From an uncultured Acetatifactor sp. (lineage in GTDB: Bacteria > Bacillota > Clostridia > Lachnospirales > Lachnospiraceae): 64,000 nt of DNA. Made by a program: the position numbers and the translations under genes. Positions 5,475 to 63,730 of the stretch are shown here, piece by piece; the stretch's first letter is position 1, and each line of letters opens with the position of its first letter. The notes under the pieces were generated by a model that worked only from the letters and a program-made list of their open reading frames with translations, ran no database searches and was not told the origin of the DNA. The DNA lies in the NCBI GenBank assembly GCA_947625675.1, contig CANQPH010000006.1:1-64000 (forward strand). Reading direction: 5' to 3'.

Positions 5475-6011
5475 ATGCCGCAGAAATATCTCGTCGTAGT
5501 GGACATGCAGGAAGATTTCGTGACCGGGGTCCTGGGGAGCCAGGAGGCCCGGGCCATCGTCCCGAAGGTGGTGGAAAAGGTGAAGGGCTTTGAGGGAGAA
5601 GTGATTTTCACCAGAGACACCCATCAGCCGAACTACCTCTCCACCCAGGAGGGCAGGAACCTTCCCGTGGAGCACTGCATCGAGGGCACGGAGGGCTGGA
5701 GGCTCATCGAGCCCCTGGAGCGGTTTCGCCTGGAGAAGGACTGCAGGGTTTATGACAAGCCATCCTTCGGCAGCCAGAAGCTGGCTGCGGATCTGGCGGC
5801 GGAAGCGGAACGGGGAGAAGTGGAGAGCGTGGAACTGATCGGTGTCTGTACGGACATTTGCGTGGTTTCCAACGCCCTGCTTTTGAAGGCCGCCATGCCG
5901 GAGATTCCCGTTCTGGCGGATGCTTCCTGCTGCGCTGGGGTGACGCCGGAGAAGCATAAATGCGCCCTGGAGACTATGAGAAGCTGTCAGGTGCTGGTGA
6001 CAGAGGATTGA
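5475..6011 (+). CDS. Isochorismatase-family cysteine hydrolase (nicotinamidase-like)
   Basis: Member of the isochorismatase/nicotinamidase fold. The N-terminal DMQEDF supplies the catalytic Asp, DKPSFGS supplies the Lys, and CTDICV supplies the nucleophilic Cys. TRDTHQPNYL with a later EHC resembles the metal-binding region of nicotinamidases, so deamidation of nicotinamide in NAD salvage is the best guess, but substrate is not fixed by sequence. I chose ATG 5475 because GGAGGA sits eight bases upstream. 178 residues. Confidence 0.85.
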   Translation: MPQKYLVVVDMQEDFVTGVLGSQEARAIVPKVVEKVKGFEGEVIFTRDTHQPNYLSTQEGRNLPVEHCIEGTEGWRLIEPLERFRLEKDCRVYDKPSFGSQKLAADLAAEAERGEVESVELIGVCTDICVVSNALLLKAAMPEIPVLADASCCAGVTPEKHKCALETMRSCQVLVTED

Positions 6012-6076
6012 GACTGGCGGCGCAAGGCCGGGGCTGAAAGTGGGAGACTGAGGCCTGTGGCGCAAGGCCGGGAGAG
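6010..6076. repeat. Two degenerate intergenic repeat copies
   Basis: GAGACTG followed by GGCGCAAGGCCGGG occurs twice, the second copy carrying a short insertion, immediately after the hydrolase stop. It belongs to the minisatellite pattern seen across the window. Confidence 0.5.
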
Positions 6077-6153
6077 GTTTTCCGAGATTTCGGAAGGGAA
6101 TTTTCCCGGCATGCGGAAAACTGCGAAAGAAATCAGATTAGGCGGTGGATGGT

Positions 6154-7050
6154 ATGTATCAGATTATCAGCGACGGTTCCTGTGACCTGCCGGAAGAGCT
6201 GGTCCGGGAAAAAGGGGTGGAAGTGGTCCCCTTTTACGTGTCTTTTGACGACAAAACCTATTACAAAGAAATTGCGGAGATGCCCATACGGAAATTTTAC
6301 GATCTGATGGTGGAGCAGGAGAACGTGGTGTTTCCCAAATCTTCCCTGCCGTCCATAGAGGATTACGTAACCGTTTTTGAAAAATATGCGAAGCAGGGAA
6401 TCCCCATCATCTGTATCTGTATCACCGTCAAGTTCAGCGGCTCTTACCAGGCCGCCATGAGCGCCCGGGAGATCGTCCTGGAAACTTGTCCGGAGGCCCG
6501 GATCGAAGTGATCGATTCCAAGGTGGACACTGTGCTCCAGGGTATGTACGTCCTGGAGGCGGTGAAGCTGCAGGAGCAGGGCGTGGGATATGAGGAAGCC
6601 GTGGACCGTCTGCTGAAGATCCGGGATACGGGCAGGATTTTCTTCACCGTGGGCAGCATCGATTATCTGAAGCACGGCGGGAGAATCGGGAAACTCTCCG
6701 GCCTGGCTGCTTCCGTGCTGGGCATCCGGCCCCTGATCACCCTGAAGGAAGGGGAGATTTTCCCTTCCGGCCTGTCCCGCAGCCGCCGGAAGTCCCTGGA
6801 GGCAGTGATGAATCTCCTGGACAACCATATCAAGTCCTTGCTGGCCCAGGGGGCCGACATGAAGGACTATCGGGTGGACGTGGGTTACGGATACGACATC
6901 CCGGAGGCCAGGGAATTCCGGCAGAAGATAAAGGAACGCTTCGCCGGGGTGCTGGACGTGGAAGAGATTGAGATGTACCAGATCGGCGCCACCATAGCGG
7001 TGCACACCGGCCCTCATCCGCTTGGAGTGGGGTTTTTGAAGAAGGCGTAA
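6154..7050 (+). CDS. DegV family fatty-acid-binding protein
   Basis: DegV proteins bind a fatty acid and, in several Firmicutes, serve fatty acid kinase as FakB-type partners. The hallmark N-terminus ISDGSCDLP, the TVKFSGSYQAA loop and the C-terminal GATIAVHTGPHPLGVGF are present. Start ATG 6154 is preferred (AGGCGG eight bases upstream) over GTG 6145. About 298 residues. A second, divergent DegV gene is at 60621. The tyrosine phosphatase gene follows 24 bases downstream in the same direction, so they are probably cotranscribed. Confidence 0.92.
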   Translation: MYQIISDGSCDLPEELVREKGVEVVPFYVSFDDKTYYKEIAEMPIRKFYDLMVEQENVVFPKSSLPSIEDYVTVFEKYAKQGIPIICICITVKFSGSYQAAMSAREIVLETCPEARIEVIDSKVDTVLQGMYVLEAVKLQEQGVGYEEAVDRLLKIRDTGRIFFTVGSIDYLKHGGRIGKLSGLAASVLGIRPLITLKEGEIFPSGLSRSRRKSLEAVMNLLDNHIKSLLAQGADMKDYRVDVGYGYDIPEAREFRQKIKERFAGVLDVEEIEMYQIGATIAVHTGPHPLGVGFLKKA

Positions 7051-7074
7051 GAAAAACCGTGGGGAAAGGGACGT

Positions 7075-7788
7075 ATGGATTCCGTTTTTTGTTATAAGCG
7101 TTATCCCTTTAAGGGGATCTTGAATTTCCGGGACCTGGGCGGCTATCCGGTCTGGGGCGGAGGCATGACCCGCTACGGCGTGTTTTATCGGTGCGGCCAT
7201 CTGTGCACCGCCGCCAGGGAGGATATTGCGGCCCTGCGAAAAATGGGCATGCAAAAGATCATTGATCTGCGCAATCCCGGGGATTTGGTGTATATGCCGG
7301 ATAAAATCGGCGAAGAAGACGGCATCAGGGTCGTAAACATTCCGCTGCAGGAAGAGATCCATCCGGAAGAATTGGGCGTTCTGCCCGGGGAAAAGGATAC
7401 CCTGACCCTTCGGAGACTGTATCAGCAGATCGTGGACAAATCCGGCAGCAGGATCCTTCGGGTCCTGCAGGAGCTGGCGGACACGGAAGGATCGGCGGCC
7501 TTTCACTGTTTCAACGGCAAGGACCGCACGGGCATCATCGCCCTGTTTCTCCTCGCCCTGGCCGGGGTGGAGGACTGCGACATCGTGGCGGATTTCGAGG
7601 TGAGCCATACTTATATCGAGGGCCATACGGAGGACGTTTCCGGCTCCAATTATGAGAACATGAGATGGCTGCTGGCCTACATAGGGCGGCAGTTCGGCTC
7701 CCCTGTCCAATACCTGCGCCGACAGGGACTCACGCCGGACCTGGAGAAGCGTCTGGTTGACCGCCTGGTACAGCGGCCGGAAGGGTGA
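7075..7788 (+). CDS. Tyrosine-protein phosphatase (Y_phosphatase3 type)
   Basis: The P-loop HCFNGKDRTG matches the HCxxGKDRTG signature of bacterial dual-specificity/lipid-type phosphatases, with the catalytic Cys and Arg. The N-terminal NFRDLGG motif is also typical. 237 residues, no signal peptide, so cytoplasmic. It is probably in an operon with the preceding degV gene. The natural substrate (phosphoprotein or phosphoinositide-like) cannot be told from sequence. Confidence 0.9.
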   Translation: MDSVFCYKRYPFKGILNFRDLGGYPVWGGGMTRYGVFYRCGHLCTAAREDIAALRKMGMQKIIDLRNPGDLVYMPDKIGEEDGIRVVNIPLQEEIHPEELGVLPGEKDTLTLRRLYQQIVDKSGSRILRVLQELADTEGSAAFHCFNGKDRTGIIALFLLALAGVEDCDIVADFEVSHTYIEGHTEDVSGSNYENMRWLLAYIGRQFGSPVQYLRRQGLTPDLEKRLVDRLVQRPEG

Positions 7789-7812
7789 GGATTTCCTTGC
7801 CAAAACTCGCAC

Positions 7813-7841
7813 TTGCGTTCCGTCCCATTCTGTAATATACT
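7813..7841 (+). promoter_or_regulatory. Promoter for the SEC-C protein gene
   Basis: TTGCGT and TATACT are separated by 17 bp, about 70 bases upstream of the gene. Confidence 0.65.
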
Positions 7842-7912
7842 GTTGTTAATGAGCGAAGCTGTCAGCTGTTGGCGGCGAGGAAATTTGAAAAAATACGAGG
7901 ATGGTGTTGACT

Positions 7913-8498: not shown

Positions 8499-8699
8499 TT
8501 ATTTCATCTGCTCTTCCTGCTTCTGGATCATTCTGCGAACCATTTCGCCGCCGATGGAACCGGCCTCCTTGGAAGTCAGGTCGCCGTTGTAGCCTTCCTT
8601 CAGGTTTACACCCAGCTCAGATGCAACCTCGGTCTTAAAACGATCCATGGCCGCCTTGGCTTCAGGCACCTCTACCTTGCTGTTTCTGCTGTTAGACAT
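8499..8699 (-). CDS. Small acid-soluble spore protein, alpha/beta type
   Basis: Binds and protects DNA in the dormant spore. The 66-residue protein has the family pattern: a middle segment FKTEVASELGV, then GYNGDLTSKEAGSIGGEMVRRMI. The EVA-like segment near FKTEVASEL matches the GPR protease cleavage region used at germination. ATG 8699 is preceded by GAGGTGAG. It is direct evidence that the organism belongs to an endospore-forming lineage. Confidence 0.95.
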   Translation of the reverse strand: MSNSRNSKVEVPEAKAAMDRFKTEVASELGVNLKEGYNGDLTSKEAGSIGGEMVRRMIQKQEEQMK

Positions 8700-8916: not shown

Positions 8917-10170
8917 ATGAAAAAAAGAAAACCATGGCGGCTCGTTCTCCTATGTCTCCTTCTGTGCCTGAGCTTCCAAAAAAGCGAGGCTTCGGCTTCC
9001 GCCCTTAAAGAAGCGTGGGATTTGGCTTCCGCCCCAAAAGGCGCAGGGGATTGGGCTTCCTTCCGAAACGGAGCGGAGAACCTGGCTTCCGTCCGAAAAG
9101 AGCCGGAGAACTCGACTTCCGTTCAGAAGGCTTCGGAACTGGAGGAATTGCTCGCACAATATGAGCTTTATGAAACTTGTTTTGCCGACATTCAGACCAG
9201 GGATCAGATAGAAGAAAGCGGTTATTCCATTATAGAGGAGCAGGTTTTTCCCATGCTGGCGGAAAGCTTTGGGGAAGAGGAGCTGACCTTGATTCCCGCC
9301 TTTGACGGGGAGTATCAGAGGCTGGCGCTTTTCCTGACGGAGGGCTCCGGGAAGATCCTGTGGAAGACCAACCGGCTGGAGACGAATTACTGCATCCGTG
9401 GGCAGCTTCGGCAGCCCACCCAGGGAATTGCGGCCATTTCCTTCCAGGACGCCAACGGGGACGGCAGGACGGACATCATCCTGATCACCAACTGCGCCAA
9501 TGACACTGGGGAGTATGCGGGCAGGTCTTACAAGATGGGGGACGTGCTGTATCAGGAGGATGGAACCTTTTACCGGGATTGGCGGGTGTCGGAGGAACTG
9601 AACCGCTTCGGCATGAACCGCAGCGTGGACATGATCCTGGCCCACACGAGGGACGGGTATTCCACGGAGTTCCTCTATACCGCCACCACCCTGCAGGAGC
9701 TTTTGAACAACGGTTTTTCCATCATCAAGGAACACAATTATACCAAGAATTTTGAAAAAATGGGCCGTCTGCAGATCGTGCCCGGGGTCTATTCCATGGC
9801 CAGCTTCGATTTTTTCATGATTTATCTGGTCAACAATCAGGGGGACATCGTCTGGAGCTTCCAGCCCATGGAGGATTATGAGAACCTGTATGCGCTGAAG
9901 GGGATGATCTGTCAGGATCTGGACGGGGACGGCATGAAGGATCTGGCGGTGTTGGCCAGCCTGAGTTACACCAATGAGGAAAACGAGCGGGTGGTGGACG
10001 TGAAATGCCGGATTTACTACCAGCGGACCGACGGCTTCGACAAGGATACGGAGTTCCAGGATTATTACCAATGCACGAAAGACGACGCCCTGATGGATGT
10101 TGCGGTGAAAATACGAAAATTCTGGGGATGGGAATTGGAACAAAATGATAAAGATACTGATCGTAGATGA
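8917..10170 (+). CDS. Exported protein with two DxDGDG calcium-type motifs (VCBS/FG-GAP-like)
   Basis: Signal peptide (KKRKPWRLVLLCLLLCLSF) followed by a repeat-encoded linker (residues about 29-74) and two similar lobes. Each lobe holds a Ca-binding-like loop typical of VCBS/FG-GAP propeller blades: DANGDGRTDIIL and DLDGDGMKDLAVL. No catalytic residues recognised. The 3' end overlaps the response regulator start by 26 bp, so it is cotranscribed with and coupled to the two-component genes. It may act as an extracellular sensor partner of the kinase, which is inference. 417 residues. Confidence 0.75.
   Translation: MKKRKPWRLVLLCLLLCLSFQKSEASASALKEAWDLASAPKGAGDWASFRNGAENLASVRKEPENSTSVQKASELEELLAQYELYETCFADIQTRDQIEESGYSIIEEQVFPMLAESFGEEELTLIPAFDGEYQRLALFLTEGSGKILWKTNRLETNYCIRGQLRQPTQGIAAISFQDANGDGRTDIILITNCANDTGEYAGRSYKMGDVLYQEDGTFYRDWRVSEELNRFGMNRSVDMILAHTRDGYSTEFLYTATTLQELLNNGFSIIKEHNYTKNFEKMGRLQIVPGVYSMASFDFFMIYLVNNQGDIVWSFQPMEDYENLYALKGMICQDLDGDGMKDLAVLASLSYTNEENERVVDVKCRIYYQRTDGFDKDTEFQDYYQCTKDDALMDVAVKIRKFWGWELEQNDKDTDRR
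9001..9140 (+). repeat. In-frame 30-bp tandem repeat, four full copies plus a partial
   Basis: Units start at 9001, 9031, 9061, 9091 and 9121; they encode degenerate ten-residue units (SAPKGAGDWA, SFRNGAENLA and so on) just after the signal peptide of the exported protein. Confidence 0.9.
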
Positions 10171-13241: not shown

Positions 13242-14894
13242 ATGTGGATCTGGGACAGGCGGAGAGGGCAGGGTTCCGAAAGCGGTTGTGATTCCCCAAA
13301 AGGTCTTATGCGGCTTTTGCTTAAACTTGGGGCGGGTCTGGGAAGTGCGATTCTGGGTCTGCTGTTTTGGGGCGGAGCGGGAGCGGCGGCCGCCGGGGAG
13401 AGTGTTGTGGCGGAAGCCATGGAAACGGTTTCAGCGGCTGCCAGGGAGAATGTTGCGGCGGAAGCCGAAGAGGAGACTTCAGCGGCTTCCAGGGAGGCGG
13501 CTCAAGAGGAGGCCAAGAAGGCGGAGGCCGGGAGGTTTCTGGTGGCGCTGGATCCGGGGCACGGAGGGGAGGACGAAGGCTGCAGCGGGGGCGGGACGGA
13601 AGAAAAGGAGATCAATCTTTCCATCGCCCTGCTCCTTCGCCAATATTTGGAGGAGAAGGGGTACCGGGTGCTGCTCACCCGGGAAGGGGATACGTTCCTT
13701 TCCTTGGAGGAACGGGTGAGGCTGGCCAACGAAAACCGGGCCGATATTTTCGTGAGCATCCACCAGAATTCCTGTGAAGAAGGGAAGGCCCAGGGGGTGG
13801 AGACCTGGTATGCCGGAATCTATGTGGAGCCGGGCGGCGAGGCGGATGCCGGTGAGGTGTCGGGTGTGGAATCGGATGTGGAATCGGATACTGACGCAGA
13901 TTCGGGCGGCGGGACGGCTGCCGGTGAAGTGTCGGGCACGGAATCGGATGTGGAATCGGATGCTGACGCAGATCTGGGCAGCGAGGCGGCCGCCAGTCAG
14001 GCACCGTGTGTGGAGTTGGATCTGACGGCAGCCTTGGCGGCGGACCGCACCGCCAGCAGCAGACGCCTGGCCAGGCTGATCCAGGGGCAGGTCCTGAGCC
14101 GGACGGATGCCGAAGACAGGGAAGCGCAGGGGGCCTCGGATTATTATGTGACGGTGCACACCGCCATGCCCTCCTGCCTGATCGAAACGGGCTTCCTTTC
14201 CGATGAAAAGGAGCGGCAGGCCCTGGAAAGTCACGACTATCAGGAGAAAATCGCCGCCGGGATTGCGGAGGGGATCGATCTGTATTTTTTCCCCAAAACC
14301 ATGTACCTGACCTTCGATGACGGCCCTACCCGGGAAAACAGCGCAGCCGTGCTGGACATCCTGAAAGAGTGGGGAATCCGGGCCACTTTTTTCGTGGTTG
14401 GAGAAAACGTGCGGAAGAATCCGGAGGTGGCGAAGCGCATCGTGGACGAAGGACATACCATCGGGATCCACTGCAACAGTCATAGATACGAGGAATTATA
14501 TGAAAGTGCGGAAGCCTTTGAAAAGGACTTTCAGGCCGCATTTGACGCCGTTTACGAAGCCACCGGGACGGAACCCGTGCTGTTCCGCTTTCCAGGGGGC
14601 AGCATCAACGCTTATAATAAAGAGGTTTACGAGGAAATCATCCGGGACATGACGGAAAAAGGTTTTATCTATTTTGATTGGAATGCCAGTCTGGAGGATG
14701 CGGTGAAGCATTCCGGCCCGGAGGATCTCCTGGCGAACGCCAGGAAAACCGCCCTGGGCCGCAAAAGGGTGGTGATGCTGGCCCATGATACCATCTATGA
14801 CACGGTGCTCTGTCTGCCGGAACTTCTGGATCAGTTTCCGGAGTACCGCATGGAACCCCTGGATGAAAAAGTGACGCCCATCCAGTTTAAATAA
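13242..14894 (+). CDS. Bifunctional cell-wall enzyme: Amidase_3 fused to NodB-type polysaccharide deacetylase
   Basis: Predicted exported enzyme, 550 residues. N-terminal hydrophobic segment (about 28-50), a repeat-encoded Ala/Glu linker, then an amidase domain with DPGHGG, EKEINLS, SIHQNS and IETGFLSD, then a NodB deacetylase domain from about residue 350 with TFDDGP, HCNSH, RFPGG, FDWNAS and MLAHD. All metal and catalytic positions expected of both families are present, so both halves may be active. A roughly 60-residue Asp/Glu/Ser-rich repeat interrupts the amidase domain between SIHQNS and the final helices. ATG 13242 is preferred to GTG 13224 because AAGGAC precedes it. Confidence 0.9.
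   Translation: MWIWDRRRGQGSESGCDSPKGLMRLLLKLGAGLGSAILGLLFWGGAGAAAAGESVVAEAMETVSAAARENVAAEAEEETSAASREAAQEEAKKAEAGRFLVALDPGHGGEDEGCSGGGTEEKEINLSIALLLRQYLEEKGYRVLLTREGDTFLSLEERVRLANENRADIFVSIHQNSCEEGKAQGVETWYAGIYVEPGGEADAGEVSGVESDVESDTDADSGGGTAAGEVSGTESDVESDADADLGSEAAASQAPCVELDLTAALAADRTASSRRLARLIQGQVLSRTDAEDREAQGASDYYVTVHTAMPSCLIETGFLSDEKERQALESHDYQEKIAAGIAEGIDLYFFPKTMYLTFDDGPTRENSAAVLDILKEWGIRATFFVVGENVRKNPEVAKRIVDEGHTIGIHCNSHRYEELYESAEAFEKDFQAAFDAVYEATGTEPVLFRFPGGSINAYNKEVYEEIIRDMTEKGFIYFDWNASLEDAVKHSGPEDLLANARKTALGRKRVVMLAHDTIYDTVLCLPELLDQFPEYRMEPLDEKVTPIQFK
13399..13494 (+). repeat. In-frame 48-bp tandem repeat (two copies)
   Basis: Copies at 13399 and 13447 encode similar 16-residue Ala/Glu-rich linker units between the membrane segment and the amidase domain. 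Confidence 0.8.
13848..13991 (+). repeat. In-frame 72-bp tandem repeat inside the amidase domain (two copies)
   Basis: Copies begin at 13848 and 13920 and encode 24-residue acidic units (AGEVSGVESDVESD... and AGEVSGTESDVESD...). Confidence 0.88.
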
Positions 14895-16523: not shown

Positions 16524-17132
16524 ATGAGTTTAGTGCCTTATGTCATTGAGCAGACCAGCAGAGGAGAGCGGTCTTACGATATTTATTCGAGATTGTTGAA
16601 GGATCGGATTATTTTCCTGGGAGAAGAAGTGAATGACGTGACCGCCAGTCTGGTGGTGGCCCAGCTCCTGTTCCTGGAAGCGGAGGATCCCGACAAGGAT
16701 ATCCATATGTATATTAACAGCCCCGGCGGCAGCGTGACGGCGGGCCTGGCAATTTATGATACCATGCATTATATCAAGTGCGACGTGTCCACGGTCTGCA
16801 TCGGCATGGCGGCCAGCATGGGAGCCTTCCTGCTGGCGGGCGGAGCCAAGGGCAAGCGTTTCGCCCTGCCCAATGCGGAGATCATGATCCACCAGCCTTT
16901 GGGAGGGACCCAGGGACAGGCCACGGAGATCGAGATTGCGGCCAGACATATCCTGCAGACCAAGGAGAAGCTGAACCGTATGCTGGCGGAGAACACCGGC
17001 AAGGATTATGAGACCATCTGTGCGGATACGGAGAGAGATAATTGGAAGACTGCGGAGGAAGCCTGCGCTTACGGATTGATCGACAAGGTGATCGTTTCCC
17101 ATGCAGGAGAAAATTCCCGGACGGAGGCGTAA
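16524..17132 (+). CDS. clpP: ATP-dependent Clp protease proteolytic subunit
   Basis: Serine peptidase forming the tetradecameric chamber served by ClpX. The catalytic triad is visible: Ser in GMAASMGA, His in MIHQPLGG, Asp in [10 protein letters not shown]. 202 residues. The last few residues (SRTEA) and the stop codon are encoded by the first copy of a 57-bp tandem repeat, so the natural C-terminus has been replaced or extended by repeat sequence. Confidence 0.97.
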
Positions 17133-17284
17133 TATTCCCGAACGGGAGAGCGCTTTCCAGCGGGAGCGGGTTCCCGAACAGAGGCGTAATATTCCCGGAC
17201 GGGAGAGCGCTTTCCGGCGGGAGCGGGTTCCCGAACAGAGGCGTAATATTCCCGGACGGGAGAGCGCTTTCCGGCGGGAGCGGA
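17114..17284 (+). repeat. 57-bp tandem repeat, three copies, overlapping the clpP 3' end
   Basis: Units start at 17114, 17171 and 17228 and are nearly identical. The first supplies the clpP stop codon (17130-17132). The array fills the clpP-clpX gap; a degraded fourth unit may follow. There are no unique spacers, so this is not a CRISPR array. Confidence 0.95.
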
Positions 17285-18674: not shown

Positions 18675-21278
18675 GTGGGAAAAATGGAGGAAAAGGTTGT
18701 AAGAAAGCTGCCGGCGGTGGCATTGAGGGGGCTCACCGTTTTGCCGGGCCGGGTCGTGCATTTTGATTTGAGCCGCAGGAAATCCATTTTGGCGGCGGAA
18801 CGGGCCATGAAAGAGGACGGGGAATTGTTTCTGGTGACCCAGAAGGAACCAGAAACGGAGGATCCGGACTATGACGCAGTGTACCATATGGGCGTCGTGG
18901 CGCAGGTAAAGCGCATTAACAGAATGACCGGCGGAAATGTCAGAGTTTTCGCAGAGGGAGAGAGCCGGGGGATCCTGCTGGGATTCCAGGGAACCGGGGA
19001 AAAGGAAGGGGATATCCTGGCGGAGGGAGCTATCCTGACGGACGGAGGGATCCCAGGGAAAGGCTCTGTTCCGGCGGACGGAGCTAACTTGTCGGAAGGG
19101 GATACCCCGGTGGAGGGGGTTGTCCCGGCGGACGGAGACATCCCGGTGGAGGGAGTTGCCCGGGCGGACGGAGGAATCCCAGGGGAAGGCTCTGTCCCGG
19201 CGGACGGAGGCATCCCGGCGGAGGATGACTGTCTCGTGGCGGAGGTGGAGGAAGTGCCCTCTTGCGAAGGGGAGCTGGATTTCGTGAGGGAAGAAGCGAT
19301 GATCCGGCAGCTGGAAGAGATCGTCGTCTCTTATGGAAAATATTATCCCGCCCTGGGCGTGGTGCTGCAGAAGTTTTTTCAAACCGACAGGAAGCTGGAA
19401 CACCTGATCGATTTGACCGCCACCTTCATGCCCTTGCACTTTGCCGTCAAGCAGAAGCTCCTGGAGCTGCCCACCCTTGCGGAGCGATATGATTACCTGA
19501 TGGAAGTGTTGTATCAGGAAATGGAGATCGTCCAGACCAAGAAGGAAATGGCGGACAACGTCAAGGGACGGATGGAGAAGCATCAGAAGGAATATTTGCT
19601 GAGGGAGCAGATGTCCTATATCCGGCAGGAGCTGGGAGAGGATGAGGAGACGGATGCGGAGCAGTTTGAGGCGGCCCTGGAAAAGCTGAAGGCCGGCAGG
19701 GAAGTCAAGGAGAAGATCCGGAAGGAGATCAACCGGTTCAAAAATCTGAACTCCGGCAGTGCGGAAAGCTCCGTGGAACGAACCTATATCGAAACCCTGC
19801 TGGAAATGCCTTGGGATGCGGCATCCAGGGACAACACGGATTTGACCAGGGCGGAGAGGATCCTGGAGGAACAGCATTACGGCCTGGAGAAGGTCAAGGA
19901 GAGGATCCTGGAGTTCCTGGCGGTGCGGAGTCTGACCAAGCAGGGGGAAAGCCCCATCATCTGCCTGGTGGGCCCTCCCGGCACGGGCAAGACCTCCGTA
20001 GCCAAGAGCGTGGCGGAGGCTCTGGACAAGAAATATGTGCGCATCAGCCTGGGCGGGATCCGGGACGAGGCGGAGATCCGAGGCCATCGCCGTACCTACG
20101 TGGGCGCCATGCCCGGCCGTATCGCCGGGGCGCTCAGACAGGCCGGAGTGAAGAATCCTCTGATGTTGCTGGACGAGATCGACAAGGTCAGCAGCGATTA
20201 CAGGGGGGATACCTCTGCGGCCCTTCTGGAGGTGCTGGACGGGGAGCAGAACAGCCGATTCCGGGATCATTACATTGAGATTCCCATAGATCTGTCGGAG
20301 GTGTTGTTCATCGCCACGGCCAACACCACGGCCGCCATTCCCAGCCCCCTGTTGGATCGCATGGAGATCATCGAAGTCAATAGCTACACGGCCAATGAGA
20401 AGTTCCATATCGCCAAGGAACATCTGGTGGCCAAGGAATGGAAGCGCAATGGCCTGACGGAGCAGCAGCTGGTCATCAGCGACGCCGCCATCCGGCAGAT
20501 CATCGAGGGCTATACCAGGGAAGCGGGAGTAAGGGACCTGGAGAGGAAGCTGGGAGAGATCTGCAGAAAGGCCGCCAGGGAGCTGCTCACCGGCAAAAAC
20601 GGCAGGATCCGGGTCACGGGCCAGAACCTGACGAAGTATCTGGGCAATGTGAAGTATCTGCCGGACAAGCGGGATCTCACCGATCAGGTGGGAATCGTCC
20701 GGGGACTGGCCTGGACCAGCGTGGGCGGAGAGACCCTGCAGATCGAAGTCAACGTCATGCCCGGCAAGGGGGATATCGACCTGACGGGCCAGATGGGGGA
20801 CGTGATGAAGGAGTCCGCCATCACCGGCATGAGCTTTGTCCGTTCCGTCAGCAAAAAATACCAGGTCAGCCCGGAAGTCTACCGCAAAAATGATTTTCAT
20901 ATCCATATACCGGAAGGGGCGGTGCCCAAGGACGGCCCCAGCGCCGGCATCACCATGGCCACGGCCCTGGTTTCCGCAGTGACCGGCATCCCGGTCCACG
21001 GGGATCTGGCCATGACCGGGGAAATCACCCTGCGGGGAAGGGTGCTTCCCATCGGCGGGCTCAAGGAAAAGCTCCTGGCGGCCAAGACGGCGGGCATGAA
21101 GAAGGTGCTGGTGCCGGAGGACAACCGCAAGGACGTGGAGGAGATTTCCCGGGAGATCAAGTCCGGCATGGAGATCGTCTTCGTCCGGAACATGAACGAG
21201 GTGCTGGAACAGGCCCTGGTCGCCCTGCCCCAGCCCAAACCGAAGAAAAAGAAGAAGCAGGATGTGGAGGAGTTATGA
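18675..21278 (+). CDS. lon: ATP-dependent protease Lon with a repeat insertion in its N-domain
   Basis: AAA+ serine protease for misfolded proteins. An N-terminal LAN/PUA-like substrate domain is followed by a long coiled-coil (to about 350), an ATPase with Walker A GPPGTGKTS near residue 433, and a C-terminal protease with the Ser/Lys dyad (KDGPSAG near 756, the Lys of GGLKEKLLAAK near 797). About residues 112-184 are a G-x-x-P-x-D/E hexapeptide repeat placed in the N-domain between the strand RGILLGF and the strand CLVAEVEEV, which are adjacent in ordinary Lon. GTG 18675 has GGAAGG six bases upstream; ATG 18684 is the alternative. 867 residues, longer than usual because of the insert. Confidence 0.95.
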   Translation: MGKMEEKVVRKLPAVALRGLTVLPGRVVHFDLSRRKSILAAERAMKEDGELFLVTQKEPETEDPDYDAVYHMGVVAQVKRINRMTGGNVRVFAEGESRGILLGFQGTGEKEGDILAEGAILTDGGIPGKGSVPADGANLSEGDTPVEGVVPADGDIPVEGVARADGGIPGEGSVPADGGIPAEDDCLVAEVEEVPSCEGELDFVREEAMIRQLEEIVVSYGKYYPALGVVLQKFFQTDRKLEHLIDLTATFMPLHFAVKQKLLELPTLAERYDYLMEVLYQEMEIVQTKKEMADNVKGRMEKHQKEYLLREQMSYIRQELGEDEETDAEQFEAALEKLKAGREVKEKIRKEINRFKNLNSGSAESSVERTYIETLLEMPWDAASRDNTDLTRAERILEEQHYGLEKVKERILEFLAVRSLTKQGESPIICLVGPPGTGKTSVAKSVAEALDKKYVRISLGGIRDEAEIRGHRRTYVGAMPGRIAGALRQAGVKNPLMLLDEIDKVSSDYRGDTSAALLEVLDGEQNSRFRDHYIEIPIDLSEVLFIATANTTAAIPSPLLDRMEIIEVNSYTANEKFHIAKEHLVAKEWKRNGLTEQQLVISDAAIRQIIEGYTREAGVRDLERKLGEICRKAARELLTGKNGRIRVTGQNLTKYLGNVKYLPDKRDLTDQVGIVRGLAWTSVGGETLQIEVNVMPGKGDIDLTGQMGDVMKESAITGMSFVRSVSKKYQVSPEVYRKNDFHIHIPEGAVPKDGPSAGITMATALVSAVTGIPVHGDLAMTGEITLRGRVLPIGGLKEKLLAAKTAGMKKVLVPEDNRKDVEEISREIKSGMEIVFVRNMNEVLEQALVALPQPKPKKKKKQDVEEL
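19009..19225 (+). repeat. In-frame 18-bp tandem repeat (about 12 degenerate copies) inside lon
   Basis: Consensus close to GCGGACGGAGGCATCCCG, encoding hexapeptides such as GSVPAD, GGIPGE, GDTPVE, GDIPVE. Copies diverge by point changes but never break the frame. Confidence 0.9.
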
Positions 21279-33998: not shown

Positions 33999-34084
33999 AG
34001 CGATTTTGGGTGGTTAGAGCAATTTTGGAACGGCTGGAGCAATTTGGGGTGGTTGGAGCAATTTGAGGCGGCTGGAGCCATTTG
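33990..34084 (+). repeat. Degenerate 19-20-bp tandem repeat (about five copies)
   Basis: Units resemble GGCTGGAGCAATTTTGG. They begin in the last codons of the SDR gene and run to its terminator. Confidence 0.8.
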
Positions 34085-41789: not shown

Positions 41790-41814
41790 CGGCTTGGAAA
41801 CCGTTTCAACAGAG

Positions 41815-41925
41815 AGGAAAAAGTCGGCGGCGAGGAAAGCGTTTCGGCAGAAGGCGGAAAAAAGTTGACGGCGAGGAAAGCGTTTTAGCAGAAGGTGGAA
41901 AAAGTCGGTGGCGAGGTTGGAAAAC
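41815..41925 (+). repeat. Degenerate tandem repeat of about 41 bp between csoR and copA
   Basis: GGAAAAAGTCGGCGGCGAGG, AAAGCGTTTCGGCAGAAGG and variants recur two and a half times. Confidence 0.8.
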
Positions 41926-45313: not shown

Positions 45314-45370
45314 GAGTCAGGAGGAATTGCGGAGTGGAACCGCCCGTTGCTTGGCTTGGTTGCGCTGGAA

Positions 45371-45577
45371 AGGTTTCCGGGAGAGGCGGGAAAGGAGAAG
45401 GCTTCCGGGAAGTTGAGAGAAGAAGCTTTCGGGAGAGGCGGGAAAGGAGAAGGCTGCTGGGAGGTTGAGAGAAAAAGCTTTCGGGAGAGGCGGGAAAGGA
45501 GAAGGCTTCCGGGAAGTTGAGAGAAAAAGCCTTCGGGAGAGGCAGGAAGGAGAAGGCTTCCGGAAGGAGCGGAAGGG
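45371..45577 (+). repeat. 52-bp tandem repeat, about four copies, between bceR-like and bceS-like genes
   Basis: The motif GAGAGGCGGGAAAGGAGAAG recurs at 45381, 45433, 45485 and, altered, at 45537. Fills almost the whole 271-base gap and places a purine-rich run directly before the kinase start. Confidence 0.93.
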
Positions 45578-47601: not shown

Positions 47602-49820
47602 AGGCTGATAGAAACTATCCGCAGGGAGAGCAGCGTGAGAATCCGCAAGGCGCCCAGCGCACAAATCCGCAAGAGGAGCGGCGTGAAAACCTTCAGGGGA
47701 AGCGGCATGAAAATTCTCAGGGAGCTCAGCGTGAAAAAAGAAATCACGGATCGGGAAAGCCGCTGTTCTATCTCCGTCTGGCTTGGATCGGGATCCGCAA
47801 GAATAAACGGTTTTACCTGCCTTATCTGCTGACCTGTATGGGAATGGTCATGATGTTTTACATTATCGTGTTCCTGGCCACGGGAGAGTCCTTAAAGGGG
47901 ATGAGCGGCGGGGAAGTCATGGCATCGCTTTTGAGTACGGGAAGTTATGTGATCGGTTTTTTCTCCCTGTGCTTCTTGTTTTACACCAATTCCTTCCTGA
48001 TTCGCCGCAGAAAAAAGGAGTTCGGCCTGTACAACATCCTGGGCATGGGGAAGAGGAATCTGCTCTGCGTCATTTTCTGGGAAAACGTGATGATGGCTGC
48101 GCTGTCTCTGGCGGGGGGCCTGGCGGCGGGCATCGCCTTTTCCAAGCTTGCGGAGCTGCTGATGATCAACATCATGCATCAGAATGTGAACTTCACCCTT
48201 TCCGTGGGGTGGGAGGCCGTGAAACTGACCCTCCAGGTCTTCGGCGGGATTTTCCTGCTGCTTTTGCTGCGCAGCATGTGGCAGATCAGGCTTTCCAAGC
48301 CGGTGGAGCTGTTGCGGAGCGAGTCCGTGGGGGAGAAGCCGCCTCGGGCCAATTATCTGTTCGCCCTGGCGGGGCTTTTGCTTTTGAGCGGGGCCTATTA
48401 TCTGGCGGTGGTCATAGAGAACCCCCTGGAAGCCATTCTCTGGTTCTTCGTGGCGGTGATCATGGTGATCCTGGCCACCTACCTGCTGTTCATTTCCGGT
48501 TCCGTGACGCTGTGCAGGCTGCTGCAGAAAAATAAGAACTATTATTATCGAACCAATCATTTCGTCTCCGTTTCCTCCATGGTGTATCGGATGAAACGCA
48601 ACGGGGCGGGACTGGCCAGCATCTGCATCCTGTGCACCATGGTGCTGGTCATGCTCACGGGGACGGTGTGCATGTACATCGGAACGGAGGAGAGCCTTCG
48701 CAGCAGATATCCCCGGAACATTCTGCTGCGCACCCAGCAGGCGGCATCCCTGGAGGAAGAGAAGCTGGAAAACGTGAGGCTGGCCGTAAAGGAGGTGCTT
48801 GCGGAAAACGGCCGGGAAATGACGGCCCTGCAGGAGTATCGGCTGGGGGACGCCAACGGCTGTTACATCGTGGATGGAAGGATCCTGCCTTTTTTGCCCA
48901 TGGAAGAGGCCAGGGTAGCGGGAGCCCTGGATTCCTTTGTCCAGACCTGGCAGATGTTTCTGATTTCCTTGGAGGATTACAACAGGCTGATGGGGACGGA
49001 AGAAACCCTGGAGGAGGGAGAAATTCTGATCCATACCACCAAGGCAAAATATACGGAAGATACTTTGATCATGCCCTTCGGGGAGACCAGGCGGATCAAG
49101 AAATACGTGAAGGATTTCGTGAACAACGATATCGACTCCATGCAGATTTTTCCCACCTTTTATTTGATCACGCCGGATTTTGAAGGGGACATGGAGCGCT
49201 GGAATCAGGTGGAATATCGGATCTCCGAAATGGGGGACACGGTTCGATATCCGGTTACCTGGATCTGGTATTACGGTTTTGACCTGGAGGCCGGGGAGGA
49301 GGAGCAGAAGACCATTGCGCTGCAGCTTCGGGATCGTCTGAACGATCTGGCGGCAAAAGAGCAGATCTATTCGACGGAACGGGAGAGCGTAGCCCTGGAA
49401 AGAACCTATTTTTATAGCTTGTACGGGGGACTGTTTTTCCTGGGAACGCTGTTGGGCATTGTGTTCCTGCTTGCAGCAGTGCTGATCATTTATTATAAGC
49501 AGATTTCGGAAGGGTATGAGGATCAGAGCCGGTTCGAGATCATGCAGAAGGTCGGCATGACCAAGAGGGAGATCCGGAAAAGCATCAATTCCCAGGTGCT
49601 CACGGTGTTCTTCCTGCCTCTTTTGACCGCCGGAGTGCACTTGAGTTTTGCCTTCATCATCATGCGGAGGATGCTGTTGGTCTTTTCCCTGAACAACACC
49701 CTGCTGCTTCTGGCCGTGGCCGTGGTCTGCTTCGGCGTCTTCGGACTGTTCTACGTGCTGGTCTACCACAGGACGTCCCGGGCCTATTACCACATCGTGA
49801 CGGAGGCCAGGCAGGAATAG
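47598..49820 (+). CDS. BceB-type ABC permease with a repeat-encoded N-terminus
   Basis: FtsX-like permease with about ten TM segments and a large extracellular domain between TM7 and TM8 (about residues 360-600) used for sensing in the family. 740 residues. The first 46 residues are an eight-residue repeat (NPQGAQRE type) ahead of FYLRLAWIGIRKNKRFYLPY, where family members normally begin. Overlaps the ATPase gene. Confidence 0.93.
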   Translation: MKADRNYPQGEQRENPQGAQRTNPQEERRENLQGKRHENSQGAQREKRNHGSGKPLFYLRLAWIGIRKNKRFYLPYLLTCMGMVMMFYIIVFLATGESLKGMSGGEVMASLLSTGSYVIGFFSLCFLFYTNSFLIRRRKKEFGLYNILGMGKRNLLCVIFWENVMMAALSLAGGLAAGIAFSKLAELLMINIMHQNVNFTLSVGWEAVKLTLQVFGGIFLLLLLRSMWQIRLSKPVELLRSESVGEKPPRANYLFALAGLLLLSGAYYLAVVIENPLEAILWFFVAVIMVILATYLLFISGSVTLCRLLQKNKNYYYRTNHFVSVSSMVYRMKRNGAGLASICILCTMVLVMLTGTVCMYIGTEESLRSRYPRNILLRTQQAASLEEEKLENVRLAVKEVLAENGREMTALQEYRLGDANGCYIVDGRILPFLPMEEARVAGALDSFVQTWQMFLISLEDYNRLMGTEETLEEGEILIHTTKAKYTEDTLIMPFGETRRIKKYVKDFVNNDIDSMQIFPTFYLITPDFEGDMERWNQVEYRISEMGDTVRYPVTWIWYYGFDLEAGEEEQKTIALQLRDRLNDLAAKEQIYSTERESVALERTYFYSLYGGLFFLGTLLGIVFLLAAVLIIYYKQISEGYEDQSRFEIMQKVGMTKREIRKSINSQVLTVFFLPLLTAGVHLSFAFIIMRRMLLVFSLNNTLLLLAVAVVCFGVFGLFYVLVYHRTSRAYYHIVTEARQE
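47616..47735 (+). repeat. In-frame 24-bp tandem repeat (five copies) at the start of the bceB-like gene
   Basis: Encodes YPQGEQRE, NPQGAQRT, NPQEERRE, NLQGKRHE and NSQGAQRE. Confidence 0.9.
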
Positions 49821-54369: not shown

Positions 54370-54500
54370 ACCTCTGTCGATTGCTTTGCGGCTCTTGCTG
54401 CGATCCTTGTTCGATCTTTTTGTGGTTCTTGCTGAGATCCCTGTCAGCCATTTTGTGGCCTTTGAAACGATTCCCGTCGGCCACTTTTGCGGCCGCTTCC
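54370..54500 (-). repeat. Degenerate 33-35-bp tandem repeat
   Basis: GTGGTTCTTGCTGAGATCCC and variants recur three to four times between the vanR-like gene and the next regulator gene. Here the purine-rich strand is minus, as are the genes. The rest of 54155-54369 shows no gene. Confidence 0.65.
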
Positions 54501-57510: not shown

Positions 57511-57640
57511 GTTTGGCTGTATGGGAGCGAAAGAAGTGGTGCGGAAACGGCGTTTGGCTGTATGGGAGCGAAGGAAGCGGAACGAAAACAGCAGAGTGGT
57601 GCGGAACTGAAAGGAAGCGGTATGGGAGCGGATCGGGAAC
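57511..57640 (+). repeat. 41-bp degenerate tandem repeat
   Basis: GTTTGGCTGTATGGGAGCGA begins at 57511 and again at 57552; a shortened third copy (TATGGGAGCGGA) is near 57621. It follows the C39 peptidase gene. Confidence 0.85.
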
Positions 57641-59252: not shown

Positions 59253-59903
59253 ATGAAGGGACTTTTGAGGAAAGATTTTTATATGATGAAAAGCTATTGT
59301 AAAGGCTCCATCCTTTTGGTCTTGATTTTTCTGGGGGCGACCATCGTGGCCCATGAAAATTATCTGTTTTTGTTGTATCCGTTTCTGATCGTCAGCCTCT
59401 TTCCCATGACCTTGCTGAGTTATGAGGAACAGGCCGGATGGGACCGATATGTGGGGGCCTTCCCTTATTCCAAGGCTGCGGTGGTGTCCTCCAAATATGT
59501 GGTGGCCCTCCTCAGCACGGCTGCGGTGGCCCTGATCTTTGCGGCAGGGCTGTTAATCAGGGGAGCGTTTGTGAGCGGGGAGAGGATTTCTTTGGAAACT
59601 TGCCTGGGGATTTTTCTTTCTATGATGCTTCTGGGAATTTTAAGTCCCGGTCTCCTGCTGCCCTTTTTGCTTCGATTCGGAGTGGCCAAGGGAAGAGTGG
59701 TCTTCATCTGCGTGGTGGCGGTGCTTGCGGCGGCCGTGGGGGCTCTGGGGAGCATCGCCGGCGGAAGCGGTGCGGATGCGTTTTTCCTGACGGCTTTGAA
59801 CCCTGTCGGTGTAAAATTCTGGCTCTTCTGTCTGGCGGGAATTCTGTATTATGCCCTGTCCTGGGGGCTGGCCATATGGCTGTACCGCAAAAAGGAGCTG
59901 TAA
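59253..59903 (+). CDS. ABC-2-type permease
   Basis: Six hydrophobic segments, beginning MKGLLRKDFYMMKSYCKGS, typical of the ABC2_membrane_5 group that pairs with YtrA-type operons. 216 residues. GGGAGGAAGG upstream of ATG 59253. Confidence 0.9.
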   Translation: MKGLLRKDFYMMKSYCKGSILLVLIFLGATIVAHENYLFLLYPFLIVSLFPMTLLSYEEQAGWDRYVGAFPYSKAAVVSSKYVVALLSTAAVALIFAAGLLIRGAFVSGERISLETCLGIFLSMMLLGILSPGLLLPFLLRFGVAKGRVVFICVVAVLAAAVGALGSIAGGSGADAFFLTALNPVGVKFWLFCLAGILYYALSWGLAIWLYRKKEL

Positions 59904-59940
59904 AAGGGGCGAAAAGAGCTGTAAAAGGGGTGAAAAAAGG
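59894..59940 (+). repeat. Two copies of a 23-bp repeat
   Basis: GAGCTGTAAAAGGGGYGAAAA occurs twice, running from the permease stop to the ribosome site of the next gene. Confidence 0.7.
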
Positions 59941-60528
59941 ATGAAAATTTATCTGCTGCGGCATGGGGAGACCCTGTGGAACCAGGAGGGCAGGATGCAG
60001 GGGCACCGGGACGTGCCCTTGAGCGAAGAAGGGCTGAAACAGGTTGCGGAAGCCGCCGGGAAGGTCGCAAATCTGAAAGAGCCCATGGAGGCGATTTTGA
60101 GCAGTCCGCTGAAACGGGCCAGGGTTACGGCGGAGACGGTGGCGGAGGCCATCGGATACCCGAAGGAGAAGATCATCCTCTGCCCGGATCTGATCGAGCG
60201 GGGGTTCGGAGAAGCGGAAGGCTCCACCCCGGAGGAACGGCAGGAAAAATACCCGGATGGGATTTATCCGGGTATGGAAACTCCTGAGGAATTGTGCGAG
60301 AGGGCCGGGAGGGTGCTGGAGGAATGCCTGGAGCGCTTCCCCGGCCGGACCATCCTCCTGGTGAGTCACGGCATGTTCCTGAAAGCCCTTCTGGCGGTGG
60401 CCGCAGGGGCGGATTTCGAGAAGGGAGACGTTCCCATCGTGGGGCCTGCCAGCCTGAATCTGCTGGAATATACGGATGGAAAATTCACCCTGTGGATCGA
60501 TGAGACTAGGGACCGGTGGTTCCGATGA
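59941..60528 (+). CDS. Histidine phosphatase family protein
   Basis: Phosphoglycerate mutase-like fold: LLRHGETLWNQEGRMQG with the phospho-His, SSPLKRARVTAE, and the second His in LVSHGMFLKALL. 195 residues. Broad small-molecule phosphatase; substrate not predictable. The last codons run into a degenerate repeat. Confidence 0.9.
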   Translation: MKIYLLRHGETLWNQEGRMQGHRDVPLSEEGLKQVAEAAGKVANLKEPMEAILSSPLKRARVTAETVAEAIGYPKEKIILCPDLIERGFGEAEGSTPEERQEKYPDGIYPGMETPEELCERAGRVLEECLERFPGRTILLVSHGMFLKALLAVAAGADFEKGDVPIVGPASLNLLEYTDGKFTLWIDETRDRWFR

Positions 60529-60630
60529 GACTGGAGATCGGCAGGTTCTGCGAAACTCAGAATCGGTGGTTCCGATGGGGCCGGGAATCAGCGGGTTCAA
60601 CGGGCCCCGAACTCACTGGTTCAATGCGGC
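60511..60630 (+). repeat. Degenerate repeat shared by two converging gene ends
   Basis: GACCGGTGGTTCCGATGAG, GAATCGGTGGTTCCGATGGG and CACTGGTTCAATGCGG recur. They span the C-terminal codons of both the phosphatase and the minus-strand DegV gene. Confidence 0.6.
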
Positions 60631-61522: not shown

Positions 61523-61688
61523 ACTTTATTGCCTATCCTATCAGACTTTGCGCACTCTGTCAACACCGGCTTTTATTTTTTATGGGTCGGTTTTTATTTT
61601 TTATGGGCGATAGATTATGGGCGATAGATTTATTTTATTAGACAAGGGAGGTGGAGCTGTGGTAAAATAATTTTGTTTGTGAAGTCTG

Positions 61689-61756: not shown

Positions 61757-62629
61757 ATGAAGATCAGTGAAATCTACCGGCAGAAAATGGAACAGGGAAA
61801 GCAGGTGTTATCTTTTGAAATCTATCCGCCCAAGCACGGGACGGAGCTTCGGGACATCGATGCCACTCTGGAGATTCTGGCGGACTGCAGGCCGGATTTT
61901 ATCAGCGTGACCTTCGGGGCGGGGGGCAGTTCCAGCAATAACAGGACCATTGAGCTGGCCAGGAAGATCCGGGACAGTTACGGGATAGAGCCGGTGGTGC
62001 ACCTGACCTGTCTGACCTATGATAAAAAGGAAATCGACGAATTCTGCCAAGTGCTGAAGGACAACGGCATAGAGAACGTCCTGGCCCTGCGGGGGGACGC
62101 CAAGCCGGAAGTGCCGCCCAAGGAGGATTTCGCCCATGCTTCGGAACTGACGGCGTATCTCCACGAAAAGGGAGGCTTCTGCATCGGCGGGGCCTGTTAT
62201 CCGGAGAATCATCCCGATTCACCCGATCGGGTTTTTGAGATGCGTCATTTGCGGGAAAAAGTGGAAGCGGGAGCGGAGTTTTTGCTGTCCCAGCTCTTTT
62301 TTGAAAATGAAATGTTCCTTTCCTTTGAAGAGGACTGCCGGATTGCCGGGATAGACGTGCCCGTGATGCCGGGTATCATGCCCGTGATCAACAAGGCCCA
62401 GATCGAGCGCATGGTGTCCCTCTGCGGGGCGTCCCTGCCGGAACGTTTCCGCCGGATTATGAACAAGTTTGAATATAACAAGCCGGCGCTGTTTGACGCC
62501 GGCATGTCCTATGCGGTGAGCCAGATCATAGATTTGTTGGCCAGCGGCGTGGACGGGATTCACCTCTATACCATGAACAATCCCAAGGTGGCCAGACGGA
62601 TCTGCGACAGCATCCGGAACATTATTTAG
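61757..62629 (+). CDS. metF: Methylenetetrahydrofolate reductase
   Basis: Makes 5-methyl-THF for methionine synthesis or one-carbon metabolism. FEIYPPK, TFGAGGSS, ALRGDAK, GGACYPENHPDS and QLFFENE match the family, a TIM barrel with FAD. 290 residues. ATG 61757 has GAGG nine bases upstream. Its 3' end overlaps the convergent dtxR-like gene by eight bases. Confidence 0.95.
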   Translation: MKISEIYRQKMEQGKQVLSFEIYPPKHGTELRDIDATLEILADCRPDFISVTFGAGGSSSNNRTIELARKIRDSYGIEPVVHLTCLTYDKKEIDEFCQVLKDNGIENVLALRGDAKPEVPPKEDFAHASELTAYLHEKGGFCIGGACYPENHPDSPDRVFEMRHLREKVEAGAEFLLSQLFFENEMFLSFEEDCRIAGIDVPVMPGIMPVINKAQIERMVSLCGASLPERFRRIMNKFEYNKPALFDAGMSYAVSQIIDLLASGVDGIHLYTMNNPKVARRICDSIRNII

Positions 62630-62987: not shown

Positions 62988-63060
62988 CGTAATCACCCCG
63001 TTTGATTCCTTATTTTTGATACCACAATTATGAACAGTATAGCATATTTCCAGGGTCAGG

Positions 63061-63116
63061 GCAAGTGCGGGATTTTGAAGAAAAATGATCTGTGCGGGAT
63101 TTTGAAAAAATCCGAT
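63061..63116 (+). repeat. Two copies of a GTGCGGGATTTTGAA repeat
   Basis: Copies spaced 27 bp apart in the dtxR-feo gap. Confidence 0.7.
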
Positions 63117-63264
63117 TTTCTCATGGATTGGCTCCTGCCCGGCCGAAAGGGTGCAAAAGTATGCTTATTGGATGGAAGAATTCGTGAAGTGGCTGACGAA
63201 GGAATAGACGGCGGCAGACTGTTTGCCATCAAAAACTTAAGTGAGAAAAATATAATAAAAGTAC

Positions 63265-63296
63265 TTGACAACGAATATTTGTTAGAGTATACTAAC
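63265..63296 (+). promoter_or_regulatory. feo promoter with a DtxR-type palindrome over the -10
   Basis: TTGACA (63265) and TATACT (63288) with a 17-bp spacer. GTTAG-AGTATA-CTAAC (63281-63296) covers the -10 and resembles the TTAG...CTAA half-sites of DtxR/IdeR boxes. Confidence 0.65.
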
Positions 63297-63368
63297 CAAT
63301 GAAATGAGAATCGCAGGTTCGCAGAGCGGGCCTGCGGCCTCAAAAAGAAGAGGAAAGGATGAGGAACA

Positions 63369-63581
63369 ATGCCGTTGTCAATGGTAAGGGCGGGAGAGCC
63401 CAACGTGATTCGCAAAGTGGGCGGAAAAGAAGAGACCAGGAAGTTCCTGGAGAATCTGGGATTTGTGACCGGAGGGCTGGTGACGGTGGTGTCCGAGACC
63501 GGGGGGAGTCTGATCGTGAACGTGAAGGATTCCAGGGTCGCCATCGGAAGGGACATGGCCAACAAGATCCTGGTGGGATAA
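63369..63581 (+). CDS. feoA: FeoA-family protein, first copy
   Basis: 70-residue SH3-like partner of the ferrous iron transporter FeoB. Typical FLENLGFVTGGLVTVVSETGGSLIV and VAIGRDMANKILVG. ATG 63369 with AGGAAAGGATGAGG upstream. First gene of the feo operon. Confidence 0.92.
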   Translation: MPLSMVRAGEPNVIRKVGGKEETRKFLENLGFVTGGLVTVVSETGGSLIVNVKDSRVAIGRDMANKILVG

Positions 63582-63599
63582 GGGATTCTGGCTGCCGGG

Positions 63600-63730
63600 G
63601 AGGGCTAAAGTGTCCGGAGGACATCGGAGATCTCTGGGGTGCGCCGAAGGATCGAAGTGTTCCGGAAAGCGTTGGAGTGCCGGGGAATGCCGGAGAGTCG
63701 AAGCGCACCGGAGAGGGCATCCCGTAGAAG
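63600..63730 (+). repeat. Degenerate repeats between the two feoA genes
   Basis: Variants of GTGTCCGGAGGACATCGGAG, GTGTTCCGGAAAGCGTTGGA and GTGCCGGGGAATGCCGGAGA. No gene in the gap. Confidence 0.55.

Follow-up and report, generated by a model that had tools for sequence, protein, structure and literature searches.

Introduction

The closest published phenomenon that we found to the repeats described here is that of the Borgs, archaeal extrachromosomal elements without cultivated hosts (PMC12660748, available part), in which tandem repeats, as the reporting paper defines them, account for 0.62% of the average genome (PMC9879509, available part). Within the Lachnospiraceae, independent tandem-repeat inserts that are disordered have been described in one conserved protein, Rho, of two species (PMC10284900, available part). 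Here we analyse tandem repeat arrays in a stretch of 64,000 nucleotides from an uncultured Acetatifactor sp. of that family (contig CANQPH010000006.1, positions 1–64000, hereafter the window), and in the rest of the same genome (3,100,638 bases in 101 contigs, 94% complete). Arrays were called with Tandem Repeats Finder (TRF) at a score of at least 50 and a period of at least 9, overlapping rows being merged; those scoring at least 80 are termed strong.

The available part of the Borg report (PMC9879509) describes scattered arrays with locus-unique units, about half of them in open reading frames (ORFs), with genic units divisible by three, commonly disordered peptides, a coding-strand lean with T depleted, and independent origin. 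The arrays studied here resemble these in each respect: only four similar pairs were found among 95 strong arrays, 85 of 172 arrays lie in genes, all 85 have periods divisible by three, and disorder is indicated by composition for 47 strong coding arrays and by the predicted structure of Lon residues 111–180. There are also differences from the same source (PMC9879509). Borg units are perfect, whereas the median match between copies is 81% here and reaches at least 95% in only 6 of 95 arrays; Borg composition leans to A, and here it leans to purines; and Borgs are linear archaeal extrachromosomal elements, whereas the window is a clpP-clpX-lon contig of bacterial genes syntenic with those of relatives. 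The arrays thus work like Borg repeats but are not that system, because two of its defining features, perfect copies and location on a linear archaeal extrachromosomal element, do not apply here.

Other known classes fit in part. Variable number tandem repeats (minisatellites) as a class have units of about 10–100 bp arranged head to tail, in and between genes, but the comparison genomes sampled here hold fewer such loci. Repetitive extragenic palindromic (REP) sequences, miniature inverted-repeat transposable elements (MITEs) and Rickettsia palindromic elements are likewise many short repeats scattered over a genome, some of them in genes, but there a sequence is common to the loci, whereas nearly all of the units here are unrelated. 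Clustered regularly interspaced short palindromic repeats (CRISPR) differ in that here TRF calls copies placed head to tail, and 85 of the 172 arrays keep the reading frame of a gene; no CRISPR finder was run. The Rho inserts come from the same family of bacteria, but concern one protein in two species (PMC10284900, available part), whereas many proteins and non-coding sites are involved here. No report of genome-wide tandem-repeat proliferation in Lachnospiraceae was found among the open-licence PubMed Central papers that the searches listed.

Array density in the window and in the genome

The window contains 15 arrays, 10 of them strong. Twenty dinucleotide shuffles of the same sequence gave 0–2 arrays each and no strong ones. 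Outside the window, 41 stretches of the genome totalling 806,552 bases (870,552 with the window; 28% of the genome, chiefly the first 40 kb of the longest contigs) yielded 157 arrays (19.5 per 100 kb), including 85 strong arrays (10.5 per 100 kb). If this sample is representative, the whole chromosome would hold more than 300 strong arrays. By TRF, arrays occupy 1.3–1.7% of the genome, compared with the 0.62% given for Borgs under another definition.

For comparison we used 80 named loci (1,550,537 bases), all around lon and belonging to the best 80 of at least 524 relatives by match to the window Lon, the titles of these best 80 protein matches being mostly Lachnospiraceae. They contained 96 arrays (6.2 per 100 kb), 34 of them strong (2.2 per 100 kb), so that the own genome exceeds them about threefold at the lower threshold and about fivefold at the higher; only 4 of the 80 loci attained its mean density. 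The 29 loci with a GC content of 0.50–0.60 had means of 7.4 arrays and 2.6 strong arrays per 100 kb, also below the own genome. A single 50-kb stretch of E. coli K-12 contained one array and no strong array. An initial annotation of the window, made from the letters alone, had judged its repeat density unusual for a bacterial chromosome, and this is borne out against shuffled sequence, the named Lachnospiraceae loci and the E. coli stretch alike. The excess of tandem repeats is confirmed as a real, unusual, lineage-level trait, with a mechanism that is likely to be ordinary.

The annotation had listed about nineteen repeat loci, of which 17 stand. Twelve coincide with TRF arrays (9001, 13399, 13848, 17114, 19009, 25917, 31105, 33990, 41815, 45371, 47616 and 59894). 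Five more (6010, 54370, 57511, 60511 and 63061) were recovered by self-alignment, with scores of 29–52, whereas 150 segments drawn at random from the named Lachnospiraceae loci had a 95th percentile of 22; each score is the best of four overlapping windows, which biases slightly toward calling a repeat. The remaining two, 34460 (score 22) and 63600 (score 20), did not rise above this null. TRF added three loci absent from the list, at 27975, 61567 and 62344.

Placement, period and composition of the arrays

Genes were called with a simple custom ORF script rather than a standard gene finder, and the 172 arrays in 870,552 bases were compared with 300 random relocations. Arrays at stop codons (43 observed, 19.2 expected) and intergenic arrays (42 observed, 16.8 expected) were enriched. 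Internal coding arrays were depleted (57 observed, 86.6 expected), and there were 18 arrays near N-termini (25.1 expected), 10 near C-termini (19.4 expected) and 2 straddling arrays (4.9 expected). As the annotation had proposed, periods inside genes were always multiples of three (85 of 85 coding arrays); those of the other 87 arrays (stop, intergenic and straddling) were split 40/24/23 by remainder modulo three. The coding result is in part circular, as any array that broke the frame would have cut short the called ORF.

The 95 strong arrays have periods of 14–78 bp, with one of 115 bp, a median length of 113 bp and a median copy number of 2.5. The match between copies ranges from 67 to 100%. 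All-against-all BLASTN gave the four similar pairs mentioned above, in agreement with the earlier description of the units as locus-specific.

The 47 strong coding arrays encode peptide that is hydrophilic and disorder-prone by residue composition. Its hydrophobic fraction is 0.129, compared with 0.365 in the proteome, and its fraction of disorder-promoting residues is 0.796, compared with 0.532. In 26 of the 47 the true frame is the least hydrophobic of the six.

Coding arrays are 64.8% purine on the sense strand, compared with 54.1% in other coding sequence, and T is reduced to 12.8% from 21.1%. Codirectional non-coding arrays show the same lean (purine 62.3% vs 56.4%, T 18.6% vs 26.0%). The purine-rich strand is the sense strand in 75 of the 85 coding arrays and in 66 of the 79 that are non-coding and codirectional; the earlier statement that it follows gene direction thus holds as a strong tendency, though not as a rule, and the reversed case cited at 54370 is genuine (minus strand 66% purine over 54370–54500). 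This orientation could follow either transcription or replication: genes running against the leading strand, as assigned from GC skew, hold only 16 arrays, of which 10 have a purine-rich sense strand (p=0.45); for strong arrays the count is 8 of 12. At third codon positions of coding arrays the purine fraction is 0.624, compared with 0.560 expected from amino-acid use and background codons, and purely intergenic arrays reach a similar 0.628. A filter on the peptide therefore explains the purine lean only partly, since third positions and intergenic arrays share it; seed preference or tolerance at the RNA level may also contribute.

Arrays at gene ends and in related species

Seeds could be identified for arrays at gene ends. 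Of the 43 arrays in the stop class, 23 enclose the gene's stop codon, and several repeat the last codons together with the stop. A 57-bp array of three copies (17114..17283, plus strand, as are all arrays below unless another strand is given) covers the clpP stop codon and occupies most of the clpP-clpX gap, and every unit copies the clpP 3′ end including its TAA. A 19/39-bp array (33988..34084) begins in the last codons and the TGA of a short-chain dehydrogenase gene (Pfam), including and copying the 3′ end and stop region. Such copying of gene ends is the trace expected of duplicated resident sequence and not of mobile insertion.

The clpP-clpX gap measures 206 nt in the window, compared with a median of 49 nt in 95 relatives, one of which is longer (416 nt). 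It is 6 nt in the related genome G149 and 11 nt in G144, and in G146 it is 117 nt and contains a different, 21-bp array.

An 18/36-bp array (19013..19224) lies within the N-terminal domain of Lon and lengthens one loop by about 75 residues. This loop has 101 residues in the window, compared with 24–31 in 83 of 84 readable relatives; 15 of 20 genus stretches around clpX gave no comparable Lon. The distant Clostridiales locus L039 has a loop of 72 residues, with an insert that is apparently unrelated (L039 9580–12027). The window Lon is the only Lon found in the assembly, the second match being a weak similarity to the AAA region. In an AlphaFold model built from 21 sequences (mean predicted local distance difference test score, pLDDT, 67.5; predicted template modelling score 0.38; AAA part poor), pLDDT is 25–31 at residues 111–180 and below 50 at residues 107–183, between confident strands. 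The loop is thus probably disordered.

Among 144 reciprocal-best gene pairs with six related species, each represented by one genome, 28 had an array in the own gene and a further 14 had one in the partner alone. In 7 of the 28 the partner carried an array as well, and in none of the seven were the two arrays similar (BLASTN, E 1e-3); in two of these cases, those of Lon and of the gene at 27774, the two arrays differ in position. The protein with an N-terminal 69-bp array and a PTS_EIIA_1 domain (31098..31277; TRF, Pfam) has an orthologue in G023, 50% identical, with a 66-bp array of no detectable similarity. A 30-bp array of 5.3 copies forms the C-terminal tail of an ABC transporter ATPase (25923..26081; TRF, Pfam), whose counterpart in G023 also ends in a 30-bp array, coding for 10-residue repeats, with no BLASTN similarity to the window array; the two could descend from a single ancestral array that then diverged. 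In an amidase, a 48-bp array (13386..13496; TRF, Pfam) lies between a membrane-like segment, assigned by eye, and the Amidase_3 domain, and the G146 amidase has a different repeat at the matching site. No TRF array was found in the G146 orthologue of an FG-GAP-repeat protein that here has a 30-bp array near its N-terminus, after a signal-like segment assigned by eye (8976..9122; TRF, Pfam). For an FtsX-family permease with a 24-bp array in its first ~50 residues (47617..47722; TRF, Pfam), the best 20 matches in other genomes align only from residue 31–59 onward.

The wide range of copy match, together with different or missing arrays in orthologous genes, fits the variable degeneracy and the birth and decay that the initial annotation had suggested. 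As read from these sequence comparisons, birth and decay are supported between species and not within one.

Distribution across the genus

In 33 genomes with at least 9 kb sampled each, the own genome included, density ranged from 0 to 27.5 arrays per 100 kb, the values for many other species of the genus being based on about 20 kb each. A tree was built from trigger factor, ClpP, ClpX and an EngB-like GTPase (names assigned by eye). It joined the window species with G149 (support 0.98), G146 with G144 (1.00), and all four together (1.00), with G150 adjoining them (0.82). The four species have 11–23 arrays per 100 kb and G150 about 28. G132, G013 and G015 are low in array density. G023 is also array-dense, with too little sequence for placement on the tree. 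The array excess is heritable and partly clustered on the tree, in a supported clade.

Origin of the arrays

On the simplest account, slippage or template switching acts on resident sequence without RecA; in this lineage it occurs at a raised rate, or its products survive more often, and selection then sorts them by frame, position and hydrophilicity. We consider it probable that the arrays result from a raised, lineage-specific rate of small local tandem duplication that is filtered by selection. Both processes are established in bacteria generally. Slipped-strand pairing or template switching would duplicate a resident stretch, mostly of 14–78 bp; at gene ends, where the seed can be seen directly, it often consists of the 3′ end of that gene, stop codon included. 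The nested periods of 18/36 and 19/39 bp suggest that the duplicate would then expand to two or three copies, sometimes more. The placement counts support the next step, in which arrays persist where they are tolerated, outside genes, at stop codons and in in-frame loops and tails, with the strong coding arrays among the survivors being hydrophilic as well. Finally, and with support from the comparison between species, the copies decay by point mutation and are lost or replaced, so that related species have different arrays, or none, in the same genes.

Several observations weigh against this reading. We found no cause of the raised rate. The turnover comparison covers one genome per species, and copy-number change within a species was not seen. 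Recurrence of arrays in the same gene was not significant (odds ratio 2.4, p=0.13), and some arrays of the stop class may be genes truncated by the array. The trait is patchy, with dense genomes outside the clade (G011 and G018, sampled over 20 kb apiece, and G035, over 34 kb), and the sister species G149 is less dense (10.8 per 100 kb). In hydropathy the 38 weaker coding arrays hardly differ from the proteome (−0.16 vs −0.17), and their hydrophobic fraction of 0.292 is only slightly low; part of this class may therefore be ordinary sequence. T at third codon positions is not depleted (0.147 vs 0.124 expected), which weakens a transcription-coupled reading.

Candidate causes were sought in repair genes, DNA structure and base composition. 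Loss of a repair gene was rejected, as MutS, MutL, RecJ and SbcD genes are all present in the own genome (G000), the matches to MutS and MutL lying in open frames of 891 and 767 amino acids. Assembly gaps limit all of these searches. Among 138 genomes of the genus, MutS_I was found in 123, including G000; no match turned up in the assembly of G146, a dense relative. In 16 genomes each, RecJ scored over the cut-off in 14, MutL in 15 and SbcD in 9. SbcD was not found in the dense G144 and fell below the cut-off in the dense G146, but it also fell below it in the sparser G034, G015, G142, G147 and G006 and was over it in the sparse G132, and it therefore tracks density poorly. Mismatch repair is in any case not expected to see loops of 20–70 bases. 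G-quadruplex formation was likewise rejected: in 92 oriented strong arrays a three-G motif occurred once (0.5 expected), and a two-G motif 37 times on the sense strand (43.3 expected) and 4 times on the other (19.9 expected). GC content does not correlate with density, either in the 33 genomes (rho 0.18, p=0.31) or in the 80 named loci (rho −0.02), and was rejected as a cause. A separate observation concerns two of the repair genes themselves. The frames for MutL (G000:C65:1584-3476, 767 amino acids) and RecJ (G000:C9:15356-17176, 662 amino acids) are longer than those of several relatives, and the extra length may represent repeat-born linkers.

A stronger form of the preferred reading would be a heritable, chromosome-wide tandem-duplication mutator in a subclade of gut Lachnospiraceae, possibly transcription-coupled, that continually makes disordered gene ends and loops, even in the single-copy Lon. 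We regard this form as unlikely; transcription coupling is possible because intergenic arrays and third positions are purine-rich on the sense strand. Alternatively, duplications might form at the normal rate and be purged poorly in this lineage. The concentration of arrays at tolerant sites and the presence of mismatch-repair and nuclease genes would agree with such weak selection, but selection does act, since internal coding arrays are depleted and strong coding arrays are hydrophilic, and we think this explanation quite improbable. About as improbable is a dedicated system, such as a slippage-prone polymerase, a retroelement or a recombinase, writing repeats at chosen sites as has been suspected for Borgs. 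In its favour, the excess extends over the genome and clusters in part on the tree; the purine lean is common to coding and non-coding arrays, which recalls the argument from composition for a common mechanism in Borgs; and the word GAAGCG occurs in 20 of the 92 oriented strong arrays (6.2 expected). This purine-rich word is, however, marginal after correction over 4096 words; no strong motif is shared by these arrays or their flanks, and the units are unrelated and derive, at gene ends, from local seeds. The analysis identified no candidate enzyme, polymerases, retroelements and recombinases not having been surveyed. The dedicated process raised in the initial annotation is not upheld on these grounds, with the four repair genes present.

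We doubt still more that the repeats are kept for function, with disordered tails and loops tuning proteins and 3′-end arrays tuning operons, although such a role would be compatible with raised local duplication. The sole Lon found in the assembly bears a long, probably disordered loop, and in the available part of the Rho report (PMC10284900) a disordered insert alters that conserved protein, repeat inserts having arisen twice in Lachnospiraceae. On the other hand, array sequence is not detectably kept between relatives, most copies are decayed, and the clpP-clpX array is absent in G149 and G144. Very improbable, finally, is an artefact of fragmented assembly. The genome is in 101 contigs and incomplete, and one of the 19 contig starts among the checked stretches opens with an array, but the copies are usually diverged, the arrays are short and the frame is kept. 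A comparable excess in separate assemblies of related species also makes an artefact unlikely. For long arrays of nearly identical units, though, the assembled copy number is not reliable.

What is notable is that the trait extends to housekeeping genes on a bacterial chromosome and that sister genes free of arrays are available for comparison. How new disordered protein segments and C-terminal extensions arise is an open question, and these related bacteria appear to offer many independent births of such segments in orthologous genes, the array-free sisters serving as controls, for instance at the clpP-clpX gap and the Lon loop. Because density differs within a single genus, the gene or condition that governs the duplication rate can also be sought.

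Remaining arrays of the window

The amidase described above carries a second array, of 72 bp (13830..14001; TRF), within its Amidase_3 domain (Pfam match 101–346, which covers it). Two further arrays stand outside genes: a 41-bp array of three copies directly after the stop of a metal-sensing repressor gene (41796..41916; TRF, Pfam Trns_repr_metal), and an intergenic 52-bp array of 3.8 copies (45369..45563; TRF score 325) between two genes that by eye are response-regulator-like and histidine-kinase-like. A 21-bp array (59890..59947; TRF score 78) is placed at the stop codon of a gene that ends at 59903.

Weaker repeats called by TRF are a 27-bp repeat inside a minus-strand gene (27975..28031, minus strand; score 65), which has a sense purine fraction of 0.42 and is thus not purine-rich; a 21/14-bp intergenic repeat between divergent genes (61567..61630, no strand assigned; score 75); and a 21-bp repeat inside a gene (62344..62388; score 58). 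Those detected by self-alignment begin with a weak direct repeat of about 40 bp (6010..6075; score 29, offset 40), which starts at the stop codon (6009–6011) of an isochorismatase-family gene (Pfam Isochorismatase). A decayed repeat of about 34 bp lies between minus-strand genes (54370..54500, minus strand; score 46). Two copies of about 41 bp are found 3′ of the gene ending at 57495 (57511..57592; score 52), a decayed repeat at the end of the gene ending at 60528 (60511..60600; score 35, offset 50), and two imperfect copies of about 27 bp at 63061..63110 (score 33, offset 27).

Other features of the window

An AT-rich pair of small genes beside a tRNA-Pro gene (32157–32734) was possibly acquired; we take their products, by eye, to resemble DUF4160 and DUF2442 proteins. 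On the minus strand at 8499–8699, a small gene resembles by eye those for alpha/beta small acid-soluble spore proteins and is 91% identical in G146 and G145, which suggests a spore former.

The window also contains a dispersed palindromic element with the ends TAACAGTTCAGC...GCTGAACTGTTA, at 23963–24147 and also at 14917, 24326–24359 and 57821. Its ends gave six matches with at most one mismatch in the window, compared with 0.08 expected, and the region 23955–24185 folds with a z-score of −12.95. Exact ends were present in 15 of 267 loci, including own loci and those of G144, G145, G146 and G149. The element is MITE- or REP-like.

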